Assembly: GCA_029881255.1 (NCBI GenBank)
Contig: JAOUMY010000003.1
Coordinates: forward strand, 120,732 to 184,731
DNA: 64,000 nt
DNA from: Gammaproteobacteria bacterium
Lineage (GTDB): Bacteria > Pseudomonadota > Gammaproteobacteria > S012-40
Reading direction: 5' to 3'
In this document: in pieces, positions 10,282 to 41,812 of the stretch
Numbering within the stretch: the first letter of the stretch is position 1
Layout: every line of letters starts with the position of its first letter
Notes under the pieces: generated by a model
Databases searched by the model: none
Told to the model about the DNA's origin: nothing
What the model saw: only the letters and a program-made list of their open reading frames with translations
Program-made: the position numbers and the translations under genes

Positions 10282-10289
10282 ACGATTCT

Positions 10290-15090: not shown

Positions 15091-15181
15091 ATTTTGTTCC
15101 TATCACGTATTACTGTTCTTTGTCATCGACAAAGCGCTCTCTAAGCCTTTGCGGCGCTTCGATGAGAGCGCATATTCAACA

Positions 15182-16282: not shown

Positions 16283-16283
16283 G

Positions 16284-17315
16284 CTAGCCCCCTAACTCAA
16301 AACGAAACCCTTCTATCCATGGGAACGCTTCGTCGTCATCCATGTAAGCGGCAGAAAACAATTTCCCGTCGGGGGCAATGAGTGCGTCAGCATAGCCACC
16401 GTTATACAAATTCTCATACTCGGCCAATACACATATACGTTTCCACACACCGTCACAATATTCCGCCGCTGAAATCGCAGGCTGGTGATTATCGAGATCG
16501 CGGTAGAGTAACACGGGCCTGTCACCGCCTTTAATCAATACCGGAGAGTGTCCGTGCAGACCGGTCTCCTGTACGGGTAGCCAATCAGTCATACCTGATT
16601 CAGAGATCGCAAAATAAAGCGGATTGGGTTTAGCTTCGGCACGGATCACTGCAATCCACTTACCGTTGCTCATCTGCACGAAGGTATTTTCATTCAGATA
16701 TTTCTTGAGTGCATCGGAGTGAACGATTACTGATTTGATGTACCAACTATTTCCTCTATCCTGCGACCCAAGTATTACTGGCGAATGCATGATATCGCCC
16801 TCAACTGTAGCGTAGCTCGACATAAGCCACTCTCCTGTGTCGATAAGCCTCACATGCCCGTAGACCGCTGCTACCAATACGCCACCGTTGCGACGATCTA
16901 TCAGGGAGTTGATAGGCCGACGATTTAAAATGAGCGGACTTTTACCGTGTGTAGCTTCGTCGAGTCGAGAAGCATCAAAAATGCTGATATAGGGAACGTT
17001 TTCCTGATTGTTTCGATAATGCCTGGAAACCAGAACGCACTGTCCGTCGAACGGGCCACTCAGTATTGCGTCAAGATCATTGGGAAGCGTATGTGTTTGA
17101 TTAAAGAAAACGGGTACACGTTGCCAGCGATTCTCCGTCCCACCGTCACCGAAATAAAAATAGATTTTGCCACCATCTCCATGCGGGGTTTTCGAAGGCG
17201 TGACACCCTGTCGGCACGCCATCCAGATTCTGTCGCCATGGCAAATCAAGGTAGGAAAAGCGGAATAGCGACCACTTTTTTTAGGCTCGATGGAAAACTG
17301 TCTTTCGACTTTCAT
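16284..17315 (-). CDS. BNR-repeat, sialidase-like beta-propeller protein
   Basis: A 343-residue protein without a visible signal peptide. Segments such as G-R-Y-S-A-F-P-T-L, I-W-M-A-C-R-Q-G and S-Q-D-R-G-N-S-W-Y resemble sialidase-superfamily propeller blades. The last fits the Asp-box S-x-D-x-G-x-x-W, and R-P-V-L-L-Y-R-D-L-D and P-W-I-E-G-F suggest further blades. Sialidases cleave or transfer nonulosonic acids, so its place between pseC (9-base gap) and pseF (1-base gap) is suggestive. Lack of an export signal argues against a simple secreted hydrolase. Catalytic Arg triad and Tyr/Glu pair cannot be assigned by eye; a carbohydrate-binding or structural role is possible. Confidence 0.65.
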   Translation of the reverse strand: MKVERQFSIEPKKSGRYSAFPTLICHGDRIWMACRQGVTPSKTPHGDGGKIYFYFGDGGTENRWQRVPVFFNQTHTLPNDLDAILSGPFDGQCVLVSRHYRNNQENVPYISIFDASRLDEATHGKSPLILNRRPINSLIDRRNGGVLVAAVYGHVRLIDTGEWLMSSYATVEGDIMHSPVILGSQDRGNSWYIKSVIVHSDALKKYLNENTFVQMSNGKWIAVIRAEAKPNPLYFAISESGMTDWLPVQETGLHGHSPVLIKGGDRPVLLYRDLDNHQPAISAAEYCDGVWKRICVLAEYENLYNGGYADALIAPDGKLFSAAYMDDDEAFPWIEGFRFELGG

Positions 17316-17324
17316 CGTGTGTTT

Positions 17325-18461
17325 TCACTGACTCCGCAAACTATCTACCAGTCCCAAAATCGTTTCGATTACACGCTGCACATCGGCATTAGTCATTGCC
17401 GGAAAGATCGGCAAACTGATAATTTGCCGAGACACCTGCTCCGCAACCACGCAATTCGCCGCTGGATACATCTCTTTGTAAAAGGGCTGCAGGTGGACCG
17501 GAAAATAGTGAACATTGACACCAATCTGCGCTTTGCGCAATTGCGCAAACAGTTCATCGCGATCAAGTTCACCATCGCTAATGCTTATGATATAGAGGTG
17601 CCAGGCATGACCTATCTCGCTTACCGTTGACAGCGGCGCAATACCGAAAACAGTGGAAAAAACCTCATTGTAGATCTGTGCAATCTCTCGTCGTCTGTCG
17701 ATAAAGTGTTTGAGTTTAGATAGCTGACTCAGCCCAAGAGCAGCATGAATATCACTCATACGATAGTTATAACCCGGCGCATGCATTTCGTAATACCAGT
17801 TATTCGACAATTCGCGCTGTTGACTGTCTCGCGACATGCCATGATTGCGAAACCGGCGCGAAAATTCTGCCAGCGATTTGTTGTTTGTGACCAACATTCC
17901 ACCCTCACCACAGGCAATAGCCTTGACGGGATGAAAGCTGAAAACGGTGATATCGGCCAGGGTTCCCACCGGCCTTCCTTTGTAGCTTGCACCCAGTGAA
18001 TGACAGGCATCGGCAACAAGAATCAAATTGTGTCTATCGGCTATTTTACGCAGCGCGTCATAGTCACAAGCTTGTCCGGCGAAATCCATGGCAATAATGG
18101 CGCGAGTGCGAGCGCTAATTCGTTGTTCAACGCTAGCGGTATCAAGCAACAAAGTGTCCGCATCGACATCCGCGAATACCGGCGTTCCTCCCTGATACAC
18201 AACACAGTTCGCGGTAGCGAGAAAAGTCATCGTCGGAACGATAACCTCGTCACCAGGACCAATACCAATACTGGCCATCGCGCAATGTAAAGCGGCGGTG
18301 CCACTACTTACAGCGATGGCGTATTCCGCACCACAAAACTTTGCAATAGCATCCTCAAACTGCGAAACCTTCGGTCCGGTCGTTAACCAGGGTGAGCGCA
18401 ATGTTTCTACAACGGCATCGATATCCTGCTGATCAATCGTCTGACGTCCGTAAGGCAACAT
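17325..18461 (-). CDS. pseC: UDP-4-amino-4,6-dideoxy-N-acetyl-beta-L-altrosamine transaminase
   Basis: A 378-residue DegT/DnrJ/EryC1-type PLP aminotransferase, the second pseudaminic acid step (4-keto to 4-amino sugar using glutamate). Residues 51-58 (V-S-S-G-T-A-A-L) bind the cofactor phosphate. D-A-C-H-S-L-G lies at ~151-157, and S-F-H-P-V-K places the PLP lysine at residue 180, followed by the glycine-rich G-E-G-G. Length and N-terminus (L-P-Y-G-R-Q) match PseC. It is 8 bases downstream of pseB, as in most pse operons. Product 4-amino group is normally acetylated by PseH, which is not seen here. Confidence 0.9.
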   Translation of the reverse strand: MLPYGRQTIDQQDIDAVVETLRSPWLTTGPKVSQFEDAIAKFCGAEYAIAVSSGTAALHCAMASIGIGPGDEVIVPTMTFLATANCVVYQGGTPVFADVDADTLLLDTASVEQRISARTRAIIAMDFAGQACDYDALRKIADRHNLILVADACHSLGASYKGRPVGTLADITVFSFHPVKAIACGEGGMLVTNNKSLAEFSRRFRNHGMSRDSQQRELSNNWYYEMHAPGYNYRMSDIHAALGLSQLSKLKHFIDRRREIAQIYNEVFSTVFGIAPLSTVSEIGHAWHLYIISISDGELDRDELFAQLRKAQIGVNVHYFPVHLQPFYKEMYPAANCVVAEQVSRQIISLPIFPAMTNADVQRVIETILGLVDSLRSQ

Positions 18462-18469
18462 AGGCGTTT

Positions 18470-19468
18470 TCAGAACCCCATTTGAGAGATCATGCGACGC
18501 AATTGGTCGACGTCCAGCCAGTCCTCGTTTTTTTCGCTGCTGTATTCAAATCCATTTGGACAACAGGTGCCACCTTTCCGGGCAGCCTTTTCCTTGCGTT
18601 CATTTTTTGGATCGATATAGGTGGGGTATATGATAAAGCGGTCTTGCAGTTCAATGGTGTAACGGGCGTCATCACGCGCCACCATCACTTCGTGTAATTT
18701 CTCACCCGGTCGAATACCGACGACGTTCAGTTCACACTCCGGCGCAACTGCGTGAGCTAGATCGGTGATTCTTACACTGGGTATCTTGGGCACGAAAATC
18801 TCGCCACCTTCCATACCTGTCATACAATCAAGTACAAACTCAACAGCCTCATCCAGGCTAATCCAGAAGCGTGTCATTTCCGGATCAGTAATGGTCAGCG
18901 CGCCAGTTTGCTTTTGACGCATAAACAAGGGCACCACGCTACCGCGACTGGCGACAACATTGCCATATCGCACCACGGCAAAGCGCGTTTTCTTTGTACC
19001 GCGATAATTATTCGCCGCGACAAACATCTTGTCCGCACACAGCTTGCTCGCACCGTATAGATTAATGGGATTGGCGGCCTTGTCTGTGCTCAGATTGATC
19101 ACCGTGCTGACATTGCAGTCCAGCGCAGCCTCAATAACATTGGCGGAACCGTTGATATTGGTCTTGATCGCTTCAAAGGGATTGTATTCACAGGTGTCAA
19201 CCTGCTTAAGGGCGGCAGCATGAATCACCACGTCTACTTGATCGAAGGCGCGATAAAGACGGTTCTGATCACGCACATCACCAATAAAATAACGAATATA
19301 GGGAAATTCTGACTTGGGAAAGCGCGCCGCCATCTCCGATTGTTTGAGCTCGTCACGACTGAAGATGATTAACTTGCGCGGACGAAATCGCTGAGTCACG
19401 ATTTCGACGAATTTTTGACCAAACGACCCGGTTCCCCCGGTCACCAAAACTACTTTGTCATTTAGCAT
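18470..19468 (-). CDS. pseB: UDP-N-acetylglucosamine 4,6-dehydratase (inverting)
   Basis: A 332-residue short-chain dehydrogenase-type enzyme for the first pseudaminic acid step (UDP-GlcNAc C5-inverting 4,6-dehydration). T-G-G-T-G-S-F-G (10-17) binds NADP. N-L-S-T-D-K (125-130) and Y138-x3-K142 supply the catalytic residues. The I-R-P-G-E-K-L-H-E segment near the C-terminus is characteristic of the FlaA1/PseB/CapD family. It heads the ten-gene leftward operon. The intergenic space to the divergent TPR gene is ~126 bases and holds only a weak promoter-like sequence. Confidence 0.92.
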   Translation of the reverse strand: MLNDKVVLVTGGTGSFGQKFVEIVTQRFRPRKLIIFSRDELKQSEMAARFPKSEFPYIRYFIGDVRDQNRLYRAFDQVDVVIHAAALKQVDTCEYNPFEAIKTNINGSANVIEAALDCNVSTVINLSTDKAANPINLYGASKLCADKMFVAANNYRGTKKTRFAVVRYGNVVASRGSVVPLFMRQKQTGALTITDPEMTRFWISLDEAVEFVLDCMTGMEGGEIFVPKIPSVRITDLAHAVAPECELNVVGIRPGEKLHEVMVARDDARYTIELQDRFIIYPTYIDPKNERKEKAARKGGTCCPNGFEYSSEKNEDWLDVDQLRRMISQMGF

Positions 19469-19594: not shown

Positions 19595-21685
19595 ATGCGC
19601 CATATTCCAAACACCCATGCCAGCGGAGATCTGTTTCAGAAGGCCGTAGACCGATTTCGTCAGGGAGATCTGGAGCAGGCTCGTGGCCTGTGTGAAAAAT
19701 TGTTGCGCACACAGCCGAGCAACGTCCAAACGCTTCAGCTCTATGGCACTGTCTTGTATTTCGGCAAGACTCTGGACCAGGCCGCAACCGTCCTGCAAAA
19801 AGCCGTGAAGCTTCACGACAATAGCCCGGAAACACATAACACGCTCGGATGTGTCTATAAAGACAGCAACAGTGCAGAACTCGCTGAACAACATTTAAAA
19901 CACGCCTTAGCACTGCGCCCAAATTACGCTGCGGCAATGCTGAATCTCTCAATACTCTACATACAGACTAAGCGCCTAGCTGAGGCGATTGAATCGCTGA
20001 AGACGCTGGTTGGGCAAGAACCTCAGCACGCCAAGGCCAACTATCTGCTTGGCCAGTGCTTTCTGGATGGTGGTTTGTTACAAAACGCCATACACCACTT
20101 TCGAATCTGCTGGTCACTCTCGCCGCAGGACATCGACTTGAGCGCAAAGCTAGCAAGCCTTTACTTACACCAACGCATGTTTAACGATGCACGCAACGTC
20201 CTTGAACAAAGCAGTAGATATGCGCCTCAGGCCTTTCCCCTATTATTGCAATGGGGAAACCTGCATCTCGAAGAAGGTCGCCTGGACGAAGCAGAACATT
20301 TGTATAAGCGCCTGCTAAAAGAGAATGACAATAGCGAAATACTGCTCAACAATCTCGGTGTTATCGCCGAAAAGCGCGAACAATACGAGCAGGCAAACGA
20401 CTATTACCTGCGTTCGCTTGCAATCAAACCCGAATCGACGCTTACCTTGGTCAACCTCGGAAGAGTTGCCTGGCGGAAAAATGAATACCGCGCAGGACGA
20501 CAGTGGTGTGAAAAGGCGCTGCAACTTGCCCCAAATGATGTGGGAGCGAAGCTGTGTCTGGCCAACATCACCGAGTCAGAATCAGACATCTCCGGCGCTG
20601 AACAAATATTGCGCACCCTTATTGAACAGGATGGCGACAACTTCAAGGCCTGGTATAACCTCGGGAATCTGCTGCAACGACGCGGAGACCTGGTTCACGC
20701 GGCGCAATGCTATCGAGCAACGTCACGCTTGAATCCCACCTATGCCGATGCATCACTCAATCTCGGAATTGCATTATTAACTATGGGCCAGTTCGAGGAA
20801 GGCTGGCACCACTACTTTCACCGCCTGCGATTTCCGCCAGACGGTATTTGCCTGAGCCCGATTGGTCAACAGGCATCATATACCGGAAAAAAAATATTGC
20901 TGCTGCGCGCGCAAGGGATAGGAGACGAAATTCTGTTTCTGCGCTATGCCACGCTACTTGCCGAACAGGGAGCAACACTCACTTACTGCCCAAATAAAAA
21001 GCTACGCGCAATTATTGAGCGTTTACCGTTTATTGACTCGGTGCAAGATGAGAACAACCCCGATCAGCGAGGCCATGACTTTACATTTATGGTCGATGAT
21101 TTACCTTTGATAACCGGCTGCACCTCGAAAGATGACATGCCATCGCCGATCACATTTCAACCGTTGCCAGACAAAATCGTCCAAATCAAACACCGCCTAC
21201 TACCATACCAGGATGGCAAACCTATCGTCGGCCTGACCTGGCGCGCAGGCGCCCGAAAGGCAAACACCGGCTTCGAAAACGCACGCGTACTCAGCAAACA
21301 AATTGAATTGGAAAAATTCGCAGCGATGGTTCACGGCTTAGACGCGCACTTCCTCATTCTTCAACGTGATGTGGAAACCCAGGAACTTTCCACATTGGCA
21401 GAATTACTCACTGTACCTGTTCACGATTTTTCAGACCTAAACGATGATCTGGAAGGAATGATCGCACTACTCGCGCAACTCGACGACTATATCGGCGTGA
21501 GCAATACCAATATGCACTTGATGACAGCAATAGGCGGCAGCGCACAGGTTTTGGTTCTCTTTCCACCGGATTGGCGTTGGATGTATAGCGGCGATAGCAC
21601 GCCCTGGTGTCCCGGTTTTCACATTCTTCGCCAGTCGCCCGAAGGGGAGTGGCCCGCGCTTTTTCCACTGGGACACAAACACTGA
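19595..21685 (+). CDS. TPR protein with GT9-like C-terminal domain
   Basis: A 696-residue protein, probably cytoplasmic. About eleven tetratricopeptide repeats fill residues ~10-390, with recurring A-x2-L-x3-G, N-L-G and A-x3-Y-x3-L positions. The C-terminal ~300 residues have L-L-R-A-Q-G-I-G-D-E-I-L-F-L-R-Y, V-G-L-T-W-R-A-G and Y-I-G-V-S-N-T-N-M-H-L, resembling heptosyltransferase/GT9 donor-site motifs. This TPR plus GT-B layout recalls O-GlcNAc transferase, but homology to that enzyme is not claimed. The ATG at 19595 follows GAGG; an upstream TTG at 19580 is less likely. It is divergent from pseB and close to flagellin genes, so a role in flagellin glycosylation is inferred. Confidence 0.75.
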   Translation: MRHIPNTHASGDLFQKAVDRFRQGDLEQARGLCEKLLRTQPSNVQTLQLYGTVLYFGKTLDQAATVLQKAVKLHDNSPETHNTLGCVYKDSNSAELAEQHLKHALALRPNYAAAMLNLSILYIQTKRLAEAIESLKTLVGQEPQHAKANYLLGQCFLDGGLLQNAIHHFRICWSLSPQDIDLSAKLASLYLHQRMFNDARNVLEQSSRYAPQAFPLLLQWGNLHLEEGRLDEAEHLYKRLLKENDNSEILLNNLGVIAEKREQYEQANDYYLRSLAIKPESTLTLVNLGRVAWRKNEYRAGRQWCEKALQLAPNDVGAKLCLANITESESDISGAEQILRTLIEQDGDNFKAWYNLGNLLQRRGDLVHAAQCYRATSRLNPTYADASLNLGIALLTMGQFEEGWHHYFHRLRFPPDGICLSPIGQQASYTGKKILLLRAQGIGDEILFLRYATLLAEQGATLTYCPNKKLRAIIERLPFIDSVQDENNPDQRGHDFTFMVDDLPLITGCTSKDDMPSPITFQPLPDKIVQIKHRLLPYQDGKPIVGLTWRAGARKANTGFENARVLSKQIELEKFAAMVHGLDAHFLILQRDVETQELSTLAELLTVPVHDFSDLNDDLEGMIALLAQLDDYIGVSNTNMHLMTAIGGSAQVLVLFPPDWRWMYSGDSTPWCPGFHILRQSPEGEWPALFPLGHKH

Positions 21686-24018: not shown

Positions 24019-25482
24019 GTGAACGTTCACACTCTACTCAAGGAAGCGGTAAAGGCGCACAAACAACGGAACCTCGCGGAAGCCGAGCAGTTGTACAAAC
24101 GCGTGCTTGCCATAGAGCCCAATAATGTCGATGCCACACATTATCTGGCGCTCATCGCCCAAGAGGTAGATCGGCACGATATTGCCGTTCAGTTGCTTGA
24201 AAAAGCACTTTCCTTTGCGAAAAATGATGCGAATATTCGATACAATCTGGCGCTATCACTACAAAAGCTTGAGCGCTTTGAAGATGCTCGTCATCACTAC
24301 TACGAAGCGATCAAACTCAATCCCTCGCTTTCTGTTGCCTACAACAATCTTGGCGTTATTTATCAGCAGGAAGGCTTGCACGACAAAGCCAGCGCGCTAT
24401 TTCAAAAAGCGATTAGCCTGGACTCAGGTTTCGCCGATGCCTATTTCAATCTCGCGCAAAGCAAGCGTTTTAGTGGCAGCCCTGAGATTGCGACAGAGAT
24501 TGAAAATCTACTTAAACAGAATGATCTTAAGCAAAACGAGGCGATCGCCTGTCACTTTGCCCTGGGAAAAATATATGACGATTTACAATTATATACCCAG
24601 GCTTTCGAACATTATCGTGAAGGTAATGACTTAAAGAACCAGGGATTCAACATCGAGGCATATCGCAAGTATGTCTACACCATCGAAAGCGTTTTCGACG
24701 CAGAATTACTGGCGCGCAGCAATCGCAATCATACGGCGATTGGCGAGCTGATATTCGTCCTCGGCATGCCCAGGTCGGGCACTACCTTAGTCGAACAAAT
24801 CATAGGCGCCCATCCCAAAGTCACGACTGGTGGCGAAATGGGGATAATTGGTAACTTTATCGATGAGATCGACCAGATAGTGGATGCCGCTGAACCCTAT
24901 CCACAATGTATTGCTGAATTGTCCAACGAAAAAATTCGCGAACTATCCGATCGGGTACTTATCGAGTTGGAACGCCGCCGCCCAGGATTTCTGGTTTTGA
25001 CAGACAAAACGCCCGTAAACTTTCTGCATGTCGGACTGATACATTTATTATTTCCAAAAAGCCGTATCATTCATTGCACACGCAACCCTCTGGACACATG
25101 TCTGTCTTGTTACTTTCAGAATTTCAATCGTCGCCATCATTACAGCAGCGACCTGAAAACACTCGGCCAGTTTTATCGTTTGCACGAGCATCTACTTGAA
25201 CACTGGAAAAACCTGTTGCCCGATCGCATACTCAGCGTCAACTACGAACAGCTGGTAAGTCACGGCGAGGAAGAGATACGCCGCATCATCGACCATTGCG
25301 GACTTGACTGGTCCGAGCAATGCCTGCATTTCGACAAGAACGCCAATAGTGTACGCACCGCAAGTAACTGGCAGGTCAGACAGCCTTTGTATAAGCGCTC
25401 AGTCAATCGTTGGGAAAACTACCGGGAATTTCTCGGGGAGTTGTTTGAAGGCCTGGATTTGGATCAAAAGCTGTTACTGTAA
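24019..25482 (+). CDS. TPR-containing sulfotransferase
   Basis: A 487-residue protein starting at GTG. About five TPR units occupy residues ~1-200 (for example A-E-Q-L-Y-K-R-V-L-A-I-E-P-N-N and A-Y-N-N-L-G-V-I-Y-Q). The sulfotransferase domain follows: F-V-L-G-M-P-R-S-G-T-T-L-V-E-Q-I (phosphosulfate loop, ~residues 246-261), the G-G-E-M acceptor-side segment, C-T-R-N-P-L-D-T-C-L-S (3'-phosphate loop) and a Y-E-Q-L motif. TPR-sulfotransferase fusions resemble tyrosylprotein sulfotransferase-type enzymes. The 3' end overlaps the convergent fliT by 19 bases. Its place beside the flagellin block makes flagellin or its glycan a candidate substrate; this is inference. Confidence 0.85.
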   Translation: MNVHTLLKEAVKAHKQRNLAEAEQLYKRVLAIEPNNVDATHYLALIAQEVDRHDIAVQLLEKALSFAKNDANIRYNLALSLQKLERFEDARHHYYEAIKLNPSLSVAYNNLGVIYQQEGLHDKASALFQKAISLDSGFADAYFNLAQSKRFSGSPEIATEIENLLKQNDLKQNEAIACHFALGKIYDDLQLYTQAFEHYREGNDLKNQGFNIEAYRKYVYTIESVFDAELLARSNRNHTAIGELIFVLGMPRSGTTLVEQIIGAHPKVTTGGEMGIIGNFIDEIDQIVDAAEPYPQCIAELSNEKIRELSDRVLIELERRRPGFLVLTDKTPVNFLHVGLIHLLFPKSRIIHCTRNPLDTCLSCYFQNFNRRHHYSSDLKTLGQFYRLHEHLLEHWKNLLPDRILSVNYEQLVSHGEEEIRRIIDHCGLDWSEQCLHFDKNANSVRTASNWQVRQPLYKRSVNRWENYREFLGELFEGLDLDQKLLL

Positions 25483-28877: not shown

Positions 28878-30350
28878 TTAACTCAAAAGACTCAACACGT
28901 TTTGCGGAATTGCATTGGCTTGCGCCAACATCGCAACACCCGCTTGCTGCAAGATCTGGTTACGTGTCAACTCAGCTGTTTCGATAGCAAAGTCGGCATC
29001 GCGTATCCGTGATCGTGCGGCACTGAGGTTTTCTACATTGGTTTCGAGGTTACGTATCGTAGACTCAAAACGACTTTGTAGAGCACCAAAACGTGCACGC
29101 TGGCTACTGACTTGCGCCAGCGCAGCATCCACGACAGATAGCGCTAGATTACTGCCCGTTACCGTGCTGATATCTAGATCCGCTACCTTTTGCAAGGTAG
29201 AAGCTTCTGTCGAGTTGTTAAGTGCATGGCTGGTATTGGAATCCGTGATGGAGAATGATTTCTCTGCATCAAAGAAAACCTCACCACTACCAACCGCCGT
29301 CGACGCTGTACCATCATTACTCAATACGGTCGAAGACGCTTCCGCAGTTCCTTGCACACCAGCACCACCTGTTACGGTAACCGTACCGGAATTGGTGTAA
29401 GTCGTGTCGCTGACTACAACGTTTTCACCTTGATAATGCGTTAAGGTGATACCTGTGCCATCGTCTTTGACCTTGGCAACGACACCGGTCTTGGACTGGT
29501 AGTCGTTAAATGCTTGTACCGCGGCAGACAGAGACTCGGTCCCTGTAGCGGCGGAAAGGTCGAAGCTGATAGTCGAGGCGGTTGCATTGTCACCATTGAC
29601 AGTCAACTGATAAGTACCGGAACTGGAGAAAGCCAGATCGATTTCCGTTACGGCAGTAGCTTTAACACCGGTAGACTCACTAACCAGATTAACTGATTCT
29701 GCGATGTCTGCAGCGTTATCAGTCGAGACGTAGGAAACGGCTTTGGTCCCTTCCGAACCGACGACAGTGAGTGTTCCAGCGGCGGTAAAACGATCCACAC
29801 CTTGCGCTACATGGTTGTTCTGACCATAAATACGATAATCACCGTATTTATCAGTCTTGAAGTTTCCAGTGGTGGCGACAATGGTCTGATTGGCATTGGC
29901 ACCGATTTGAAACAGTGCGGTACCGAAAGAGCCGTCAAGTATCTTCTGACCATTAAACTCTGTGGTCTTGGCGATACGGTTAAGTTCTGCTGTTAGCTGA
30001 CCAACCTCCAGTTGCAGTGCCTTGCGGTCACCTGATGAGTTGGTTGCATTGATGGACTGGACTGCAAGCTCGCGAACACGCTGCAGGATGGTACTAGCCT
30101 CCTGCAGGGCGCCTTCTGCGACCTGAGCCAGAGAGATACCATCGTTTGCGTTTCGAGTAGCAACAGATAGACCGCGGACCTGGGCGGTAAACCGCTCAGA
30201 TATCGCGAGACCAGCGGCATCGTCTCGAGCGCTGTTGATGCGCAATCCAGACGATAGCCTTTGCAATGACGTACTTAATGAGCCTTGAGAACGGTTTAGG
30301 TTCTTCTGCGCATTAAGTGCCATCACATTGGTATTAATTATTTGTGGCAT
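28878..30350 (-). CDS. fliC: Flagellin 1
   Basis: A 490-residue flagellin. The N-terminal D0/D1 ([14 protein letters not shown], then [14 protein letters not shown]) and the C-terminal half ([22 protein letters not shown]) are classic. The central ~200 residues are Ser/Thr-rich, the usual place for O-linked glycans. It is very similar in protein sequence to flagellin 2, including the central domain, whereas synonymous positions differ widely. GAGG precedes the ATG. A sigma-28-like promoter and a 5' leader hairpin lie upstream. Confidence 0.95.
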
Positions 30351-31096: not shown

Positions 31097-32572
31097 TTAT
31101 CCTAGTAGACTCAATACGTTCTGAGGTATTGCATTGGCCTGGGCCAACATCGCGGTACCAGCTTGCTGTAGGATCTGGTTGCGCGTCAGCTCGGCGGTCT
31201 CGACTGCGAAGTCCGCGTCTCTGATACGAGAACGTGCAGCACTCAGGTTTTCTATGCTGGTTTCAAGGTTACGAATCGTAGATTCGAAACGACTTTGAAG
31301 AGCACCGAAACGTGCGCGCTGATTACTGACCTGTGCCAGTGCCGCGTCGACGATATACATCGCTGTGTTACTTCCTGTAACGGTACTGATGTCGAGATCA
31401 GCAACTTTCAACAATGAAGAAGCCTCTGTCGAGTTATTCAAGGCATGGCTGGTGTTGGAGTCTGTGATCGAGAATGACTTCTCAGCATCAAAGAAAATCT
31501 CACCGCTGCCAACTACGGAAGAGGCCGTACCTTCATTCGTCAATACCGATGTAGACGCCTCAGCAGTACCTTGAACACCTGCACCGCCGGTTAAGGTCAC
31601 CGTACCTGAATTGGTATATGTGGTGTCACTTACCTGGATATTTTCACCCTGGTAATGCGTCAAGGTGATACCCGATCCGTCTTCCTTCACCTTGGCTACA
31701 ACGCCAGTCTTGGACTGATAGTCGTTAAATGCCTGTACCGCAGAAGACAGGGACTCGATACCCGTATCTGAGTCAAGACTAAAACTGATCGTGACCGCAG
31801 ATGTAGTGTTATCACCATTCAGGGTTAACTGATATGTACCCGAGGATGAGAACACCATGTCGATTTCGGTTAATGCAGTTGCCTTAACCCCTGTGCCTTC
31901 ACTAACCAGGTTAACAGACTCTGCAATATCAGCGGCGTTGTCAGTAGTCTGGTAGTTAACCGTTTTGGTACCCTCAGATCCAACAATCGTCAAAGTACCA
32001 GCAGCGGTAAAACGATCCGCACCTTGCGCTACGTGGTTATTCTGACCATAAATACGGTAATCACCATATTTGTCTGTCTTAAAGTTACCGGTTGTTGCCA
32101 CGATGGTCTGATTGGCGTTCGCGCCGATCTGGAACAGTGCTGTTCCAAATGTTCCGTCCAGGATCTTCTGACCATTAAATTCCGTTGTCTTGGCAATACG
32201 ATTCAATTCTGCAGTGAGCTGTCCTACTTCCAGTTGTAGTGCCTTACGGTCACCGGCAGAGTTAGTGGCGTTGGCTGACTGTACTGCCAGCTCACGCACA
32301 CGCTGAAGAATCAAGCCTGCTTCCTGCAGTGCACCTTCTGCCACCTGGGCCAAAGAGATACCGTCGTTCGCGTTACGAGCCGCTACCGTCAGACCACGAA
32401 CCTGAGAAGTAAAACGCTCAGAGATCGCAAGACCAGCGGCATCGTCTTTGGCGGAGTTGATACGTAGACCAGATGACAGTCGTTGGAGAGATGTCGCTAG
32501 ACCACTCTGAGAACGGTTTAAGTTCTTCTGAGCGTTCAATGACATTACATTGGTATTAATAATTTGAGGCAT
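31097..32572 (-). CDS. fliC: Flagellin 2
   Basis: A 491-residue flagellin paralogous to flagellin 1. The D0/D1 ends ([14 protein letters not shown] at the start; N-V-L-S-L-L-G at the end) and the central Ser/Thr-rich region can be aligned throughout with few gaps. Codon choice differs at many third positions, indicating an old duplication held by purifying selection. GAGGG lies eight bases before the ATG. It is a single-gene unit with its own sigma-28-like promoter and strong terminator, and is divergent from the TPR/GT9-like gene at 32926. Confidence 0.95.
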
Positions 32573-32925: not shown

Positions 32926-34713
32926 ATGTCTGCGCAATTGCTTCAGCAGGCCGCCAAGGCCTTTAACCAGGGACAGTACCAACAATGCGTATCCCTGTGC
33001 GCGAAAATGCTTAAGCAGCAACCGCGAAATGTAACAGCAATGATGCTCCTGGGTCTGGCAGAGTTCCGCCAGGGAAGAACGGAAGAAGGTATCGCGCATT
33101 TACGCAAAATTCTGACTCTCGACCCCGGTCATCTCGAAACACTTAACAACCTGGCCATTATTCTTGAGCAGACCGCTCAATATGATGAAGCGAAAAACTG
33201 CTATCAACGCGCAATCACGGCCCATCCGAAGGCGCTCATGTCCTACGCAAATTTCGGTGACTTGTTGCGCAAGACCGGCCAAACAGAAAAAGCCATTGAA
33301 GTGCTTGAGCAAGGCTTGCATGTAGATGAGCAACACTTTCCCTGTTTGAATTATCTGGCCTTGTGCTATGAACAACAGGGAAAACGAACACAGGCAATCG
33401 CAATCCTAAGCCGCATTACCAAAATCGATCCGAATAATGAAAGAGCCAATGCCAATTTAGGCAGTCTTTACTATCTCGACAAACAATATGAACAGGCACT
33501 CTCACCACTTAACGACGCGCTGAGAATAAACCCTACAAGTCTTTCTGCGCTAAACAGCCTCGCTGCCACACTCATTGATATGTCGCGACTCGAAGAAGCA
33601 TGGCCCTTCCTCGAACGCGCTATGGCTATTGCGCCGGAAGCGCCTGAGGTTTTAGACAACCTCGGCAAATGGTATCTATTCTCCGGTGAACTCGATCAGG
33701 CGCTGATTTATCTAAACCAGGCGAGCGAAAAAATGCCTGACAATTTAAAACCGGTTTGGCATCGTTCCTTTGTCTATTTATTAAAAGGTGACTATGCGCG
33801 AGGATGGGATGACTACTTCGCCGGATATACTTCCGGGGAACGGATGATACGCGCCTTTCCCTTTCCCGTCTGGCAGGGCGAATCACTACACGAAAAGACG
33901 ATACTCATACACGCAGAGCAAGGTATTGGTGATGAAATCATGTTCGCCTCATGCCTGCCAGATGTCATTGCGGTTGCAGGACACGTCATTATTGAGTGTG
34001 ATTCGCGACTGGGCGAATTGTACCAACGCGCTTTTCCAGGCGCCGAAATCATAAGTGGCCCACGCAGCGAAAACTTTGCGCAGCTATCACGCTTAACCAG
34101 TATCGATTACCACTTGCCTTGTGGGTGTCTGCCACGCCTGCTCCGACGTGATATCTCCAATTTTCCCGGCACGCCATTTCTTCGCGCCGACGAGGAAAAA
34201 ATCCTGCGTTGGCGCAAGCGCTATCAGGACATAGGCGAGAATCTTAATGTCGGTATTTCCTGGCGCGCAGGAAAATTGAACAATCAGGAAAAACGCAGTA
34301 TCCATCTCGTCGATATGCTACCTCTGCTAAGCCTACCCGGCATCAGCTTTATCAATCTTCAATATGGTGATTGCCAGCAAGAAATTGCTGATTTACGTAA
34401 TCAATACGGCATCACCGTACACCACTGGCCGGACAGCGATCCCAAAAACGAACAAGATGATTTTGCCGCACAAATCAGCGCACTTGACGCCGTTTTATCG
34501 GTAAGTAACGCCACCGTTCATCTCGCCGGCGCGCTAGGCGTAAAAACATTCAATTTGCTACCCTATGTTCCGAGCTGGCGCTGGACGATGTACGGCGACA
34601 AAACACCCTGGTATGACTGTGTTGAACTATTGCGCCAGTCCTCAAACGAAGACTGGACCGAAGTACTGAGCAAGGCCACTGATCGACTACGGGCACTTGG
34701 CACGCATGGATGA
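32926..34713 (+). CDS. TPR protein with GT9-like C-terminal domain
   Basis: A 595-residue protein. The start at 32926 (M-S-A-Q-L-L-Q-Q-A) is chosen because GGGA lies just upstream and TPRs begin immediately; the longer frame from 32710 crosses the flagellin 2 promoter. About nine TPRs occupy residues ~1-290. The C-terminal part has I-L-I-H-A-E-Q-G-I-G-D-E-I-M-F-A, V-G-I-S-W-R-A-G and V-L-S-V-S-N-A-T-V-H-L-A-G-A, similar to the GT9 fold and to the proteins at 19.6 and 34.7 kb. It overlaps the next TPR gene by 8 bases, implying translational coupling. Divergence from flagellin 2 supports a flagellin-linked role. Confidence 0.75.
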   Translation: MSAQLLQQAAKAFNQGQYQQCVSLCAKMLKQQPRNVTAMMLLGLAEFRQGRTEEGIAHLRKILTLDPGHLETLNNLAIILEQTAQYDEAKNCYQRAITAHPKALMSYANFGDLLRKTGQTEKAIEVLEQGLHVDEQHFPCLNYLALCYEQQGKRTQAIAILSRITKIDPNNERANANLGSLYYLDKQYEQALSPLNDALRINPTSLSALNSLAATLIDMSRLEEAWPFLERAMAIAPEAPEVLDNLGKWYLFSGELDQALIYLNQASEKMPDNLKPVWHRSFVYLLKGDYARGWDDYFAGYTSGERMIRAFPFPVWQGESLHEKTILIHAEQGIGDEIMFASCLPDVIAVAGHVIIECDSRLGELYQRAFPGAEIISGPRSENFAQLSRLTSIDYHLPCGCLPRLLRRDISNFPGTPFLRADEEKILRWRKRYQDIGENLNVGISWRAGKLNNQEKRSIHLVDMLPLLSLPGISFINLQYGDCQQEIADLRNQYGITVHHWPDSDPKNEQDDFAAQISALDAVLSVSNATVHLAGALGVKTFNLLPYVPSWRWTMYGDKTPWYDCVELLRQSSNEDWTEVLSKATDRLRALGTHG

Positions 34714-36334
34714 ATTATTGCAAACCGCGCATCAGTTACACACGCAGGGAAAAATACCTGAGGCAATTACGCGTTACCGCGAAATACTCACAAAACACCC
34801 CGAGCGAGATGACGTTCAAATTCTCTACGGCTTTGCTCTCGTTCAAAGCGGTAATTTTTCGCAAGCGCTTTCCACTCTCGAATCAGTACCGCAACAAACA
34901 AAAACAGCCGATGTTTATAGCGCTATTTCTAGTTGCCACCAACAACTGGGCAATATACAGGCAGCAATAACGGCGCTACAAAACGCTCTCGCCATACAGG
35001 AACGACCTGAACTGTTCGATCGTCTGTCTCGTTTGTTCATACAAATCGGTTCTTATGCGCAGGCTAGAGATCTGAGCACAAAATGCGTAGCGCGTTATCC
35101 AGAGTTTCTTTCTGCGCAACTGGTATTGGCCGTGGCATATATGCATCTAGATCAAACGCATCTTGCTTTGGGCATCCTGGAAGCGATACACAGTGATAGC
35201 CCTGTGCTGTCGCGCGAGCGTGATATAAATCTCGCCAACGCCCACCGAATTTTGGGCAACGATCAAAACGCACTTTCCATTTTAACTCATTTGCTCGAAA
35301 ACAAACCCGATGACGATGCGTTACACGTCAATCGCGGTCATATACTGAAGAAGTTAGGCAAACATTCTGACGCACAAGACGCCTATCAGCTCGCGCTGAA
35401 AGTAAATCCGCACAACCGTCTGGCTCAGTGGAATCTCGCGCAGCTCACCTTGGGGAAATTCCAATGGGATCAGGGCTGGAAACTGTATCAGGTCGGAAAA
35501 AGTATTGGGCTGCGTCCACAATTGAACAGCACGCTGACCTATTGGCAAGGTCAGCCTTTACACGACATCCCGCTGTTACTGATTTGCGAACAAGGCCTGG
35601 GCGAAGAAATACTGTTTGCCAGTTGTTTTGCTGATGTGGCAAGTCTCGCCCCGAATACCACGGTTGCCTGTGATCCACGACTCATACCGCTGTTTTCCAC
35701 ATCGTTTCCTGAATTCACCTTTGTCAGTAAAAACACTACTCCCACGACATTGAGCAAGCAAACGCAACTTTGCTTGTGTGGGGACTTACCAGCCATGTTT
35801 AGACAACAACTGGCAGATTTTCCCAAGCGAAAAGCCTGGCTCAAGCCTCCACAGGTTGACGACCAATGCCAAAAGCTCTCCCCTAACACACTAAACATTG
35901 GCTTTTCCTGGCAGGGTGGCAAGAACGAAGAAGAACGACTCTTCCGATCGATTCCTCTACCGCACTGGCATGCGCTGTTTGGTACGGGGCACAATTGGAT
36001 TTCTCTACAATACGATTTCGATAAGGTACATAGTGATGCGCCGGAAAATGTGACCCTTCCTTCAATCGATGTAAAAAACGATATTGCCGCCCTGGCACAC
36101 CTGATCAATCAACTCGACGTCGTTATCACCATCGACAACAGCATTGCTCATCTCGCCGCCGCGTTGGGAAAACCGACCTGGGTGTTACTACCAGCGTCGG
36201 CCTACTGGGTTTGGGGTGAAGGATCTGAAGCGACGCCATGGTATCCCAGCGCGACGCTGATACGACAAAACCGCCCATATGCATGGAGCGATGTCATTAA
36301 GACCGTTGGTGATATGCTGTTGAAGCGATCCTGA
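34706..36334 (+). CDS. TPR protein with GT9-like C-terminal domain
   Basis: A 542-residue protein. The ATG at 34706 overlaps the preceding stop by 8 bases; a TTG at 34697 is the less likely alternative. TPR-like repeats span residues ~1-250 (A-I-T-R-Y-R-E-I-L, A-I-T-A-L-Q-N-A-L, D-A-Q-D-A-Y-Q-L-A-L-K-V-N-P). The C-terminal domain contains L-L-I-C-E-Q-G-L-G-E-E-I-L-F-A-S, I-G-F-S-W-Q-G-G and V-I-T-I-D-N-S-I-A-H-L-A-A-A-L-G-K-P, close to GT9 donor-site motifs. It forms a two-gene unit with its neighbour between flagellins 2 and 3. Function inferred as glycan transfer to flagellin. Confidence 0.75.
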   Translation: MDELLQTAHQLHTQGKIPEAITRYREILTKHPERDDVQILYGFALVQSGNFSQALSTLESVPQQTKTADVYSAISSCHQQLGNIQAAITALQNALAIQERPELFDRLSRLFIQIGSYAQARDLSTKCVARYPEFLSAQLVLAVAYMHLDQTHLALGILEAIHSDSPVLSRERDINLANAHRILGNDQNALSILTHLLENKPDDDALHVNRGHILKKLGKHSDAQDAYQLALKVNPHNRLAQWNLAQLTLGKFQWDQGWKLYQVGKSIGLRPQLNSTLTYWQGQPLHDIPLLLICEQGLGEEILFASCFADVASLAPNTTVACDPRLIPLFSTSFPEFTFVSKNTTPTTLSKQTQLCLCGDLPAMFRQQLADFPKRKAWLKPPQVDDQCQKLSPNTLNIGFSWQGGKNEEERLFRSIPLPHWHALFGTGHNWISLQYDFDKVHSDAPENVTLPSIDVKNDIAALAHLINQLDVVITIDNSIAHLAAALGKPTWVLLPASAYWVWGEGSEATPWYPSATLIRQNRPYAWSDVIKTVGDMLLKRS

Positions 36335-36417: not shown

Positions 36418-37896
36418 TTACTGTAGCAAGCTGAGTACGTTCTGCGGTACCTGATTGGCCTGCGCCAACATCGCCGTTCCAGCCTGTTGCAAGATTTGCG
36501 TACGCGTGAGTTCTGCGGTTTCCACAGCGAAGTCCGCGTCCTGAATTCGCGAACGTGCCGCGCTCAGATTCTCGACGCTGGTTTCGAGATTTCGAATAGT
36601 CGACTCAAAACGAGCCTGCAAGGCACCGAAACGTGCACGCTGCCCACTCACCTGCGCTATCGCTTTGTCGACGATTACCAACGCCTCGTTTGAACTACTG
36701 ACTGAAGTCAGATCGAGATCGGCTACCTTGAGCAAGGCTGACGCTTCGTTGGTTTGCCTTAATACCTCACCCGCCGTCATCGTCTGGATGGCAAAGGATT
36801 TTGCCGAATCAAAAATAATTTGACCAGTACCTACCGCCGCAGATTGGGCGCCATCGGCCGCTAACACTGTGGTGCCTGATCCGGCTAAGCCGCCAAGACT
36901 GTCGCCACCCTGTACGGTTACACTACCCGCATTACTGTAAAGTGTGTCACGAATGGTGAGATTGTTGCCTGAATAGTTGGTCAACGTAATACCAGTTCCA
37001 TCCGATTTCACGGTGGCTACCACGCCGGTCCTTGCCTGATGATCATTGACGGCCTGTACAGCCGCACCAAGCGCCTCAAGGCCTGTATCTTTTGTTAGAT
37101 AGAAACTAACTGAAGCCGGCGTGCTGAGGTTATCAGACAAAATCTCGAACTGATAGGATCCAGACGCCGAAAATGTCAAATCGACATCCGTTTTTGCCCA
37201 CGCATCAACACCTGTTACATCCGACACGAGGTTAATTGCATCAACGATGTCAGCCGCAGTATCAGTAGATGCATAGTTAACGCTGGCAAAACCGTCGGCG
37301 CCAGTTATAAAAAGCGATCCATTCGATGAAGTGAATCTGTCCACGCCAGCAGTGACCGTACTGGCTTGACCAGCGATGCGATAATCACCGTATTGATTGG
37401 TCTTAAAATTTGCCGTAGTGGCCACGATTGTTTGATTGGCGTTAGAACCTACCTGAAAAAGTGCCGTTCCAAAGGTACCGTCGAGGATCTTCTGGCCATT
37501 AAACTCGGCCGAACGCGCTATACGCTGCAATTCGGCAACGAGCTGTTTGTTTTCCAGATCGAGCGCTTTTCTGTCATTTGTTGAGTTGGTGGCGTTAATC
37601 GATTGCACAGCCAATTCTCGAATGCGCTGAAGAATGTTGCTTGCCTCCTGCAATGCACCTTCTGCAACCTGTGACAGTGAAATACCATCATTTGCATTTC
37701 TCACCGCGACCGTCAAACCTCTCACTTGAGAGGTAAAACGCTCAACGATTGCAAGACCTGCAGCGTCATCTTTTGCGCTGTTGATACGCAGACCTGAGGA
37801 CAGTCGTTGCAAGGAGGTTTTCAGTCCGTCCTGCGAGCGGTTAAGGTTACGCTGCGCATTCATTGACATGATGTTGGTGTTAATAATTTGAGGCAT
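36418..37896 (-). CDS. fliC: Flagellin 3 (divergent paralogue)
   Basis: A 492-residue flagellin with canonical ends ([37 protein letters not shown]). Its central domain is clearly less similar to flagellins 1 and 2 than these are to each other. It lacks the sigma-28-like promoter and leader hairpin of the other two and instead has a sigma-54-type site at 37999-38014. AAGGAG precedes the ATG. This pattern resembles polar flagellates in which one flagellin is expressed earlier than the others. Confidence 0.95.
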
Positions 37897-38158: not shown

Positions 38159-39508
38159 TTATAAATAGTTAAACAGTGACAATTCCGATACTTTCTTATA
38201 AGTATTTTGCGAAGCATCAAGCGCGGTCAGCTGCATGTTTAGTCGTGTAATCGCCTCCGCATAGTCCAGGTCTTCTATTTGTGACAAAACCTGCCTAAGC
38301 TGGAGATTAAAACTCTCATTGATTTCTTTCTGTTTTTGCACCGTATTCATACGTGCACCCACCCGTGCACGCGTATCCAGCACACTACCAATCGCCTGAT
38401 CAATATCCACGATGACGCGATTCATGGCGCTGTGAAAATGTGTTCTCTCTGCATCAGTAGCCTGCTCAGAGACCAGTGCATCCTCTAGATTTTTAATCGT
38501 TTTAAAAATGTTCTGGTAGTTGCTGGGTTTGATCGTAAAGGTGTCCTGCGTTGCCGGGCCGACCGCAGTGATCGGTCCTGTTGCCGTTGGCTCGCCGCTG
38601 ATAGAGGTTTGAATACCATATTGCTCCAATCCGATGATTTCCGAATCCTGATACACTACCCCAGTGTCTGTGGCGGCCAGTATTGCGGCAAAATACGCTG
38701 CTTCATTGGCGTAAAGAAAACCGCCAGGCGGGGCAACACCGCTACCGCTTATGATTACCTGTCCTTTGCTATTCGTCACATAATATTCCACCGGTTGATT
38801 TGGTAACGCCGATGTCGAAGGCATGAATTTCACTTGATAGGTATCTGGAACATAGGTTCCAACTACCGCGCCTGGATCGATAATGCCTGTTCCCTGATTA
38901 GCCGGATCTTCCCATACGGAAAATCGTCCATTACCATCGCGGACCTCCATAAAAACATCCTGACCATCATCATTTACTTCGATCTTGGTCGTCGTACCAA
39001 TTTTTAATTCACGTTTTCCGTCGTCTCCATTGTAGACGTAATCATTCAGCGAAAGATCATAGGAAAAGGGGCGGGACTTACCTTTGTATCCTGAAAACAC
39101 ATATTCGTTATTGCTATCAGTCGCGTTTGCTAGCGACACTACCTGATCCTTCAACAACAATATTTCTTCTCGAATATAGCGCCGTGTTTCGACTGTTTGA
39201 CTATCGTTATTCGCATAGACGGCCATTTCACGCACGCGTTGTAGCGCGGTCATTATCCCCTGTAGTAAACCCTCTTCTTCACCCAGGCGATTGTCTGCAT
39301 ACTGAATATTAACCTGGTACTGATTGGTAATCGCGGTCGATTCCTGAAGATTGATCGCGCGAGCTGATCCATAAGGATCATCGGACGGTGCCAATATTCG
39401 CTTGCCTGTGGTGATCTGCAACTGCGTATTACTCAGTTCACCTTGCTGGCGCAACATGGCGTCCAGTGCGAATTTGGTCATCATGGCTGAGGAAATTCTA
39501 GTCGTCAT
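38159..39508 (-). CDS. flgL: Flagellar hook-associated protein 3
   Basis: A 449-residue FlgL, which joins FlgK to the flagellin filament. The N-terminus R-I-S-S-A-M-M-T-K and L-Q-I-T-T-G-K-R-I-L-A-P-S-D-D-P are family signatures. The C-terminus D-L-D-Y-A-E-A-I-T-R-L-N-M-Q and L-S-L-F-N-Y-L match flagellin-like D0. It is longer than the enteric protein (~317) because of a larger central domain. It starts 6 bases after the flgK stop with AGGGGGT as ribosome-binding site. Last gene of the flg block. Confidence 0.93.
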   Translation of the reverse strand: MTTRISSAMMTKFALDAMLRQQGELSNTQLQITTGKRILAPSDDPYGSARAINLQESTAITNQYQVNIQYADNRLGEEEGLLQGIMTALQRVREMAVYANNDSQTVETRRYIREEILLLKDQVVSLANATDSNNEYVFSGYKGKSRPFSYDLSLNDYVYNGDDGKRELKIGTTTKIEVNDDGQDVFMEVRDGNGRFSVWEDPANQGTGIIDPGAVVGTYVPDTYQVKFMPSTSALPNQPVEYYVTNSKGQVIISGSGVAPPGGFLYANEAAYFAAILAATDTGVVYQDSEIIGLEQYGIQTSISGEPTATGPITAVGPATQDTFTIKPSNYQNIFKTIKNLEDALVSEQATDAERTHFHSAMNRVIVDIDQAIGSVLDTRARVGARMNTVQKQKEINESFNLQLRQVLSQIEDLDYAEAITRLNMQLTALDASQNTYKKVSELSLFNYL

Positions 39509-39514
39509 ACCGGA

Positions 39515-41812
39515 TTACCCCCTTACTGCCTGAAGTAGCGTCTGAAACACTTGATCAGCGGCCGCGATTACTTGGGCTGCCGCAGCATAGGCCTGTTGAT
39601 AACGCAACAAGTCTGCAGCTTCTTCGTCCAGATTCACGCCGGAAATCGCCTCACGCAATTCTTTGGACTGATTGAGTAGGGCCTCTTGAGAACGGTAATT
39701 AATTTCTGCTTGTTGCGTTCGGTTACCCACAGCAGTAACTATTTGGCTATACGCTTCGTGATAGGTAGCATTTCCACCCAACATGGTTCCCTTTAGCTGT
39801 AACGCGGCGAGAGCCAATGCATTGCGATTATCGCCAGTACCAGAAGTATTGTTGTCAACATAGAAAACATCGCCCACCCACGCTTCACCGGAAAGCGTTA
39901 CACTCCAACCGTCGGTCGCGGTAAAGTTCAATGTCGTAGAAGTTGTTGAATAGGCATTCCATGTCACGCCACCGTCGATGGAATATTGATCTGCGGGACC
40001 GTAAATGTTTCCGCCGGAATGTCCCATGAGAATGTTCACGGGTATTCCAACGCTTGTACCAAACAACGTAGGATCTGTTACGGTGGTTTCCTCGATTTGA
40101 CCTCTACCCTGGTTACCCTCGGTACCACCATTATTATCCACATAGAACTGATCACCATCATTGGCGTTTCCAGTCAACATAATGGAAAAACCGTCAGTCG
40201 CCGTGCGATCGATAAGCGTGCCTGCGGGATTGTATGCGTTCCAGGTACCACCACCATCGATGGAATATTGGTTTGCCGGCAGTCCGCTACCTGGCGCTCC
40301 AGAGTCCCGTAGTAAAATTGGCATCGGAAAAAGTATCGGACCGGTATTCAAAAGATTTTCGTCGACGATGTTGAAGTTAGAAAGATAGGCCGCGCCAGTG
40401 TTTGTGCCGCGTGCCTCATTACCTGCGTCTAGCCATGAACGCAAGGGCGACGCCGCAGCGACTAGATTGGGATCATCGAAAACCATCGCAATTTTTCGCG
40501 ACGCATCACGCGTACCGTGAATAAAGAACTTGTCGCCAGCAAGCGGAACTACATCCAGCTCCAAATACATACCATCTACTGGCGAAAACTCAACAGGAGG
40601 TCCCGCGACGGAGACAGTCAACACAGTTGTTGTACCGTTAGAGAGATTTAACAAATTGTAATTTGTACCATCGTAAGACAACTCGTAGTCTGTAGGAAGA
40701 ATGTCCGGCACATCGATTCTATTCGCCAGCGTAGCAGTTGTTCCCCCAGTATTCAGACTCAATGTCGCAGTACCAGTGTTGTACACACTCGAACTCATCA
40801 TCGAGTTGTAGTCAGGCTCGACAAAAAAATCGAGACCTAGATTGTCATTTAGGTCGATCCCCAGATTGTGCTGATCATTAAAAGTACGTGACAGGCCTTG
40901 CGCAATCCATCCCAGATAATTTTGTGCAGGGACTAAAATGTCATTGCGAAACTCGATAACACCGCCAAGATCGCCACCCTTCAGCGTATTGGTGATCGGG
41001 ATCAGTATATTGGTGTATTTATCTTCATAAGCAACTTCATAGTATAGGGGATCATCGGGATCGGACTGTGCCACCAGTTTTCTATACTGGGTACCCAGTA
41101 CGAGACTTTGGCCACCACCCATGAAGATATTGAGGCTACCGTCGTCTTGCGGTATGACGGTAATGCCGATGTGTTCAGACAGCTGATCAATCAAATGGTC
41201 ACGCTGATCGAGTATGTCATTCGGTGAGTTCCCCTGCCCGATACCTGTGGCAACAATTACCTCTTGATTGATGTCGGCAATCTGTTGCGCCAGGGCATTA
41301 ATCGTAGAAACCTGGTTTTGAATTCTCGCATTTTGTGCTTTACGCAAATCATGAAACCAGTCGTCCATGGTATGGATGCGGTCTACCATTGCTTCTGCCT
41401 GCGTCATCATAACTTCGCGCGCCGGTAGTGATGTTGGGTCATCGGACACACCTTGTATGGCATCAAAAAAGTCTTCCATGGCCGGTGCAAGTGCCGCATC
41501 CTGGTCGGCAAGAAGATTATCTATTTGCGTGGCAAATTCATTGAATACCGAAAAAAATTCAGTTGAAGACGTTCTTTGTCTAACCTGATTCACGGCAAAG
41601 TCGTTATACATGCGCTCTGTAGTAATCAAACGCACGCCATTACCGACGAATCCATTGCCGAACGGCGACGGGTCATTATTTGTAACGATTACCCGTTGAC
41701 GCGAATATCCGGGGGTATTGACGTTGGCAACGTTGTGTCCAACTGTGTTCAGATTACGTTGAAAAGCCGCCAGTCCGGACAAACCAATTTGTAAAATATC
41801 ACCGCCAGCCAT
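39515..41812 (-). CDS. flgK: Flagellar hook-associated protein 1
   Basis: A 765-residue FlgK, the first hook-filament junction protein. The start I-G-L-S-G-L-A-A-F-Q-R-N-L and V-N-T-P-G-Y-S-R-Q-R and the C-terminus L-L-R-Y-Q-Q-A-Y-A-A-A-A-Q-V-I are canonical for axial proteins. It is well above the usual ~450-680 residues. Part of the excess is a tandem repeat near residues ~490-660 in which Q-Y-S-I-D-G-G-x-T-W-N-A-Y and F-Y-V-D-N-N each occur twice, about 95 residues apart. AGGAG precedes the ATG. It is in the flgJ-K-L unit. Confidence 0.95.
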   Translation of the reverse strand: MAGGDILQIGLSGLAAFQRNLNTVGHNVANVNTPGYSRQRVIVTNNDPSPFGNGFVGNGVRLITTERMYNDFAVNQVRQRTSSTEFFSVFNEFATQIDNLLADQDAALAPAMEDFFDAIQGVSDDPTSLPAREVMMTQAEAMVDRIHTMDDWFHDLRKAQNARIQNQVSTINALAQQIADINQEVIVATGIGQGNSPNDILDQRDHLIDQLSEHIGITVIPQDDGSLNIFMGGGQSLVLGTQYRKLVAQSDPDDPLYYEVAYEDKYTNILIPITNTLKGGDLGGVIEFRNDILVPAQNYLGWIAQGLSRTFNDQHNLGIDLNDNLGLDFFVEPDYNSMMSSSVYNTGTATLSLNTGGTTATLANRIDVPDILPTDYELSYDGTNYNLLNLSNGTTTVLTVSVAGPPVEFSPVDGMYLELDVVPLAGDKFFIHGTRDASRKIAMVFDDPNLVAAASPLRSWLDAGNEARGTNTGAAYLSNFNIVDENLLNTGPILFPMPILLRDSGAPGSGLPANQYSIDGGGTWNAYNPAGTLIDRTATDGFSIMLTGNANDGDQFYVDNNGGTEGNQGRGQIEETTVTDPTLFGTSVGIPVNILMGHSGGNIYGPADQYSIDGGVTWNAYSTTSTTLNFTATDGWSVTLSGEAWVGDVFYVDNNTSGTGDNRNALALAALQLKGTMLGGNATYHEAYSQIVTAVGNRTQQAEINYRSQEALLNQSKELREAISGVNLDEEAADLLRYQQAYAAAAQVIAAADQVFQTLLQAVRG

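Follow-up and report, generated by a model that had tools for sequence, protein, structure and literature searches.

Candidate FlmG-type flagellin O-glycosyltransferases encoded between flagellin genes in a gammaproteobacterium

Which enzymes attach sugars to flagellin in a bacterium that has a nonulosonic acid pathway and lacks a motility-associated factor (Maf), and which sugars do they attach? A 64,000-nucleotide stretch of a gammaproteobacterial contig (hereafter the window; JAOUMY010000003.1, positions 120,732 to 184,731) raises this question because two genes encoding tetratricopeptide repeats (TPRs) followed by a GT9-like glycosyltransferase (GT) domain, ORFs A and B, lie on the + strand between flagellin 2 and flagellin 3, both on the - strand. 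An earlier note had described this pair, a third such gene beside pseB and a related C-terminus at the start of the window, and had suggested that they may form a family of flagellin-specific O-glycosyltransferases that attaches the nonulosonic acid. All four genes were recovered (ORFs A, B and C, and the end of a 1173-residue TPR-GT protein, ORF D; Table 1); the functional claims fared differently, as described below.

Table 1 Positions of the TPR-GT, flagellar and sugar genes discussed (genome and locus handles, such as G004 and L030, are our own)
Feature	Position	Strand	Description
ORF D, C-terminal part	3..1817	+	frame open from base 3; full protein 1173 aa, L030:1028-4549
Stf0-type sulfotransferase	1961-2722	-	
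Fusion protein	6577-10359	-	1260 aa; glutamine amidotransferase + asparagine synthase joined to GT4-type glycosyltransferase
ATP-grasp ligase	10713-11942	-	L-amino acid ligase C-terminal domain
Nonulosonic acid (Pse-type) genes	13086..19468	-	
PseG-like	13086-14159	-	
NeuB	14062-15090	-	
CMP-sugar synthetase-like	15182-16282	-	
PseC	17325-18461	-	above cut-off
PseB	18470-19468	-	above cut-off
ORF C	19595..21685	+	696 aa; TPR + GT-B; group III; H-type donor site; beside pseB
Sulfotransfer_3	21768-22637	+	
TPR + Sulfotransfer_3	24019..25482	+	also beside FliD in G004 and G011
Flagellin 1	28878..30350	-	
Flagellin 2, likely acceptor	31097..32572	-	central region 28% Ser/Thr
ORF A	32926..34713	+	TPR ~residues 1-305, then GT9-like GT-B ~310-595; group I; H-type donor site
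ORF B	34697..36334	+	TPR + GT9-like GT-B; group I; H-type donor site; GEE replaces GDE
Flagellin 3, likely acceptor	36418..37896	-	
FlgL and FlgK	38159..41812	-	

Domain layout and predicted fold

ORF A begins with an ATG at 32926 and encodes 595 residues. ORF B begins at either TTG 34697 or ATG 34706, giving 545 or 542 residues, and overlaps the end of ORF A by ~8-17 bp, from which translational coupling of the two genes is likely. Sigma-54 and sigma-28 promoter patterns were sought upstream of ORF A and none was convincing. TPR arrays are present in A, B, C and D, with strong Pfam matches for A, B and C, and ORF B also passes the cut-off of the GT9 model PF01075 (2.9e-5, 23.9 bits against a cut-off of 22); the full Pfam match lists of B and C contain no match to PF13844 (GT41). 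The part of ORF D that lies within the window comprises the donor half of its GT domain (~3-440) and then a C-terminal tail of ~450 residues.

In the AlphaFold2 model of whole ORF A (pLDDT 88.8) about nine helix pairs precede a GT-B domain, and the structures ranked first by Foldseek are SPINDLY and OGT, GT41 enzymes in which a TPR superhelix holding the protein substrate is likewise combined with a GT-B catalytic domain. The comparison with OGT drawn in the earlier note is therefore fair for the layout, but it does not extend to the catalytic fold: when the GT domain of ORF A was modeled separately (pLDDT 87.9), GT9 structures occupied Foldseek ranks 1-6, with 3tov the best, followed by WaaF (1psw), WaaC and then TibC. 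TibC is a protein heptosyltransferase and thus also modifies protein, yet ORF A differs from WaaC, WaaF and TibC in having a TPR docking arm, and identity to them is 10-14%. A sequence search of the PDB with seven GT domains as queries matched nothing. The same domain pair is found in many genomes under the annotation "tetratricopeptide repeat-containing glycosyltransferase family protein" (e.g. Granulicella WP_013582209), mostly with no assigned acceptor or donor.

Relation to FlmG and to flagellin genes

Enzymes of this design are already defined by Caulobacter FlmG, a 596-residue protein in which an N-terminal TPR domain binds flagellins and a C-terminal GT-B domain puts pseudaminic acid on them in the cytoplasm, ahead of export; the system has been reconstituted in E. 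coli, and FlmG stands in for Maf in Caulobacter, which has none (eLife 2020, PMC7591256). Novelty of the family is thus unsupported. We retrieved Caulobacter fljK loci (n = 78) with a FljK query that is 100% identical to the sequence of C. vibrioides DSM 9893. The C. vibrioides locus contains FlmG as a TPR-GT gene (L032:5922-7709, - strand, 596 aa), and 38 of these 78 loci are matched by the GT domain of ORF A, for the most part with 30-35% identity. In full-length BLASTP FlmG aligns with A across both the TPR and GT regions (28% over 501 residues, E 1e-54), with B at E 1e-30 and with C at E 6e-18; sequence identity to FlmG is low (28-31%). A and FlmG are nearly equal in length and have in common LQYGDC, an FP after the CDxRL region and R407. 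On predicted domains A, B and C thus all combine an N-terminal TPR region with a C-terminal GT-B domain homologous to that of FlmG. Donor reprogramming of FlmG is reportedly the subject of an EMBO J 2023 paper.

The genomic setting is also that of FlmG, with flagellin neighbors, a Pse pathway and no Maf. Neither Maf model (PF01973 or PF20157) matched anywhere in the genome. PF20157 does detect Maf in 3 of the 276 genomes of the class, in two of them beside flagellin, so its silence here is informative. A Maf gene elsewhere in the genome was considered as an explanation and dropped, since this whole-genome profile search found none. Maf is presumed to do the same job, cytoplasmic O-glycosylation of flagellin before export, but differs from A and B in GT fold family and domain order; in a passage of PMC13317340 that cites Unay et al., some Maf proteins are said to carry TPRs at the C-terminus.

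An association with flagellin genes is supported. TPR-GT genes lie in or beside flagellin genes in the window and in G004, G011, G007, G123, G181, G280 and G070. The order FlgK-FlgL-[TPR-GT]-flagellin-FlaG-FliD recurs in G123, G004, G070 and G181, and in part in G007, G011 and G280, often with the TPR-GT gene on the opposite strand between flagellins; that opposite-strand arrangement is found in G004, G011 and G007, where the main copies are A-like, at 36-46% identity. In related genomes nine of the 21 A-like places have a flagellin gene no more than 5 kb away, against 0.23 expected (p 6e-13, a value that treats related genomes as independent); for the full set of 45 places the count is 11 against 0.49 expected. 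Named Azospirillum and Roseomonas plasmid records likewise have family members beside annotated flagellin genes. Three A-like copies occur in G134, a complete genome without a flagellin gene, and C-like copies in G044 and G174, also without one. The FlmG homology and the synteny stand; flagellin specificity of the whole family, given these genomes, is unsupported.

Caulobacter has one FlmG, whereas this genome has seven TPR-GT genes (A, B, C, D, E, F and H), six of them in one flagellar and sugar island. E and F form a tandem pair beside a fleQ-like gene, with the flagellins ~45 kb downstream of them; H is on a different contig away from flagellar genes. In GT-domain trees group II (which includes H) and group III (C, E and F) are each supported at 100/100, and group I is the remainder (A, B, D, FlmG and Azospirillum sequences). 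Within group I, D joins FlmG, Azospirillum and copies from G219 and G270 in a clade supported at 98/99; A and B, part of the same group I grade, fall outside it. Strict monophyly of group I was rejected as a claim: the quick tree gives it 95 and the careful tree nests group II inside with low support, so only groups II and III and the clade of FlmG and D are asserted. R361, F370-P371, R407, F413 and Y480 (A numbering) characterize group I and are mostly missing in II and III. C, E and F may act on other sites or other proteins.

Several observations on relatives stand apart from this argument. A 229-residue protein closes group III gene arrays here (L029:7055-7744) and in G004 (L167:5175-5864; 73% identical); a GT8-like FMDCDM motif was read in it by eye, and it has no Pfam match. 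Six group III genes follow one another in tandem in G004 (L167:5955-17420). The A-like genes of G134 (L142; G134:C1:3172000-3191000) have as neighbors genes for a genuine GT41 (OGT-type) enzyme, a GT2 and a DegT aminotransferase. In G174 a group III gene and the gene for a prepilin-like protein (L165:3524-4123), a possible alternative acceptor, lie several kb apart.

Donor-site residues and the distribution of NeuB

GT9-like enzymes are expected to use a His, Arg-Trp and Arg-Gln set on the nucleotide-diphosphate side of the donor. In ORF A this set is H532, R552 W553 and R570 Q571; it is kept in A, B (which has V552) and C (H-type) and lost in FlmG and D (H-lost). At the lost site FlmG has N and LG.D.YPW, and D has P and RLGADNYPW (NINAPLAGALG...RLGADNYPW). 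Thus D matches the donor-site state of FlmG and A and B do not, with the qualification that this state is a marker proposed here, outside the published FlmG definition. A CMP-sugar donor carries one phosphate, and loss of pyrophosphate-side residues fits such a donor, making D the best candidate for the nonulosonic acid transferase.

The distribution of NeuB across genomes points the same way. By profile search NeuB is absent from the A-type-carrying genomes G004 (100% complete), G034, G048, G123, G134 and G181, which therefore cannot make nonulosonic acid; partial matches to the NeuB model (1e-8 to 1e-12 over ~180 positions) were counted as not NeuB and are probably DAHP/KDO-type synthases. 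G004 nevertheless has A- and B-like genes between its flagellins. A-type genes thus differ from Caulobacter FlmG in occurring also without NeuB, and the claim that A and B attach the nonulosonic acid is unsupported, given same-position relatives in NeuB-less genomes and donor residues that FlmG and D lack. We likewise dropped the idea that every TPR-GT protein here attaches this sugar. The proximity of C to pseB, as a sign of nonulosonic acid transfer, is weakened by group III genes in NeuB-negative and even flagellin-less genomes.

Among copies of known status, H-lost ones were found in seven gammaproteobacterial genomes, all NeuB-positive (G000, G007, G081, G114, G219, G270 and G280), and in the Caulobacterales genomes examined, also NeuB-positive, while 12 of the 14 genomes with group I genes and no H-lost copy lack NeuB (Fisher p 3e-4, or 7e-4 once two genomes less than 90% complete are left out; the p-value is too small because the genomes share ancestry). 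G007 entered the H-lost set on a second look at further copies in NeuB-positive genomes, through G007:C266 (best match D, 40%); the same check was afterwards made on copies from NeuB-negative genomes, none of which was H-lost. NeuB in G081 and the Caulobacterales genomes was confirmed after the residue rule had predicted it. In G280 and G270 NeuB and an H-lost gene are adjacent. There are exceptions: an H-type group II gene of G243 is flanked by NeuB and flagellin, and two genomes, G167 and G220, are NeuB-positive with no H-lost copy found. Residue class alone is not proof of donor identity.

Giant proteins of up to 2726 residues, in which a single open frame holds 2-4 [TPR-GT] modules in tandem, were also encountered (L168:5082-13262 in G219, L175 in G114, L170/L171 in G270 and Azospirillum WP_111068144.1, L139:6540-10769); they are H-lost wherever readable.

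Proposed function and alternatives

The explanation we favor, with moderate confidence, is that A and B are FlmG-type flagellin O-glycosyltransferases using an NDP-sugar and that D is the CMP-nonulosonic acid transferase. Judged from sequence, one arm of A and B very probably holds flagellin while the other attaches a sugar, as in FlmG. Freshly synthesized flagellin would dock on the N-terminal TPR solenoid, and the GT9-like GT-B domain at the C-terminus would take one sugar from its nucleotide donor and place it on Ser/Thr in the flagellin central region; by analogy with FlmG, transfer would be cytoplasmic and ahead of export. The donor of A and B would most likely be a UDP-, dTDP-, GDP- or ADP-type sugar rather than CMP-nonulosonic acid. 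The comparison across genomes suggests this division, with A and B attaching an ordinary nucleotide sugar and D, most likely, the sialic-acid-like one. We infer flagellin as acceptor, the O-linkage, the donors and cytoplasmic action before export.

It is unlikely that A and/or B transfer nonulosonic acid as FlmG does, with the residue split irrelevant and the NeuB-negative relatives using another donor. The FlmG-like domain order, the Pse genes in the same island and the group-I signatures common to A and FlmG would fit, but the orthologous position is occupied in G004, where NeuB is nowhere to be found in a complete genome, A and B retain the residues that FlmG and D lost, and it is D that is closer to FlmG in the tree. 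Recurrence of the opposite-strand placement at ~40% identity, well above chance, makes it improbable that A and B act on an adhesin, pilin, LPS or other surface molecule and lie here only through clustering of sugar genes, and for LPS a GT with no TPR docking arm would be enough; the relatives in flagellin-less G134, G044 and G174, and family members far from flagellin, are what such a target would explain. ORF B has GEE in the Gly-rich loop where GDE is otherwise nearly invariant, and the Glu in place of Asp may make it a weak or inactive enzyme. This, together with the overlap of the two genes, could indicate that B, and perhaps A too, is a partner or regulator of glycosylation rather than a catalyst; we give this little credence, since the donor-site His, Trp and Arg-Gln are retained in B and the synteny of B is seen again in G004 and G007.

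The island contains further sugar genes. Three sulfotransferase genes (one Stf0-type, two Sulfotransfer_3) make a sulfated flagellin glycan possible, and the one joined to TPRs may follow the same flagellin-docking principle. The glutamine amidotransferase-asparagine synthase-GT4 protein is an unusual fusion, and the ATP-grasp ligase, whose gene is part of the nonulosonic acid operon, may couple an amino acid to the sugar.

Returning to the assignment of A and B to NDP-sugars and D to nonulosonic acid, a broader and more tentative proposal is that two FlmG-type donor classes are readable from sequence, His-Arg-Trp-Arg-Gln for NDP-sugars placed directly on flagellin and loss of these pyrophosphate-side residues for CMP-nonulosonic acids. 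If the two-class reading is true, this genome, with both classes and the third clade of C, E and F, would place several different sugars on one flagellin set by means of TPR-docked transferases working in parallel, joined by a sulfotransferase that docks in the same way; FlmG-type enzymes have been multiplied here and probably split by donor. FlmG has been described in Caulobacter with pseudaminic acid (PMC7591256). Our analysis suggests that proteins of FlmG design are widespread across Gammaproteobacteria and Azospirillum-type Alphaproteobacteria, with many members unable to use nonulosonic acid, and that the donor type can be predicted from a few residues. If so, flagellin sugars would become predictable from genomes without Maf, and the family would offer a natural enzyme series for engineering protein O-glycosylation.
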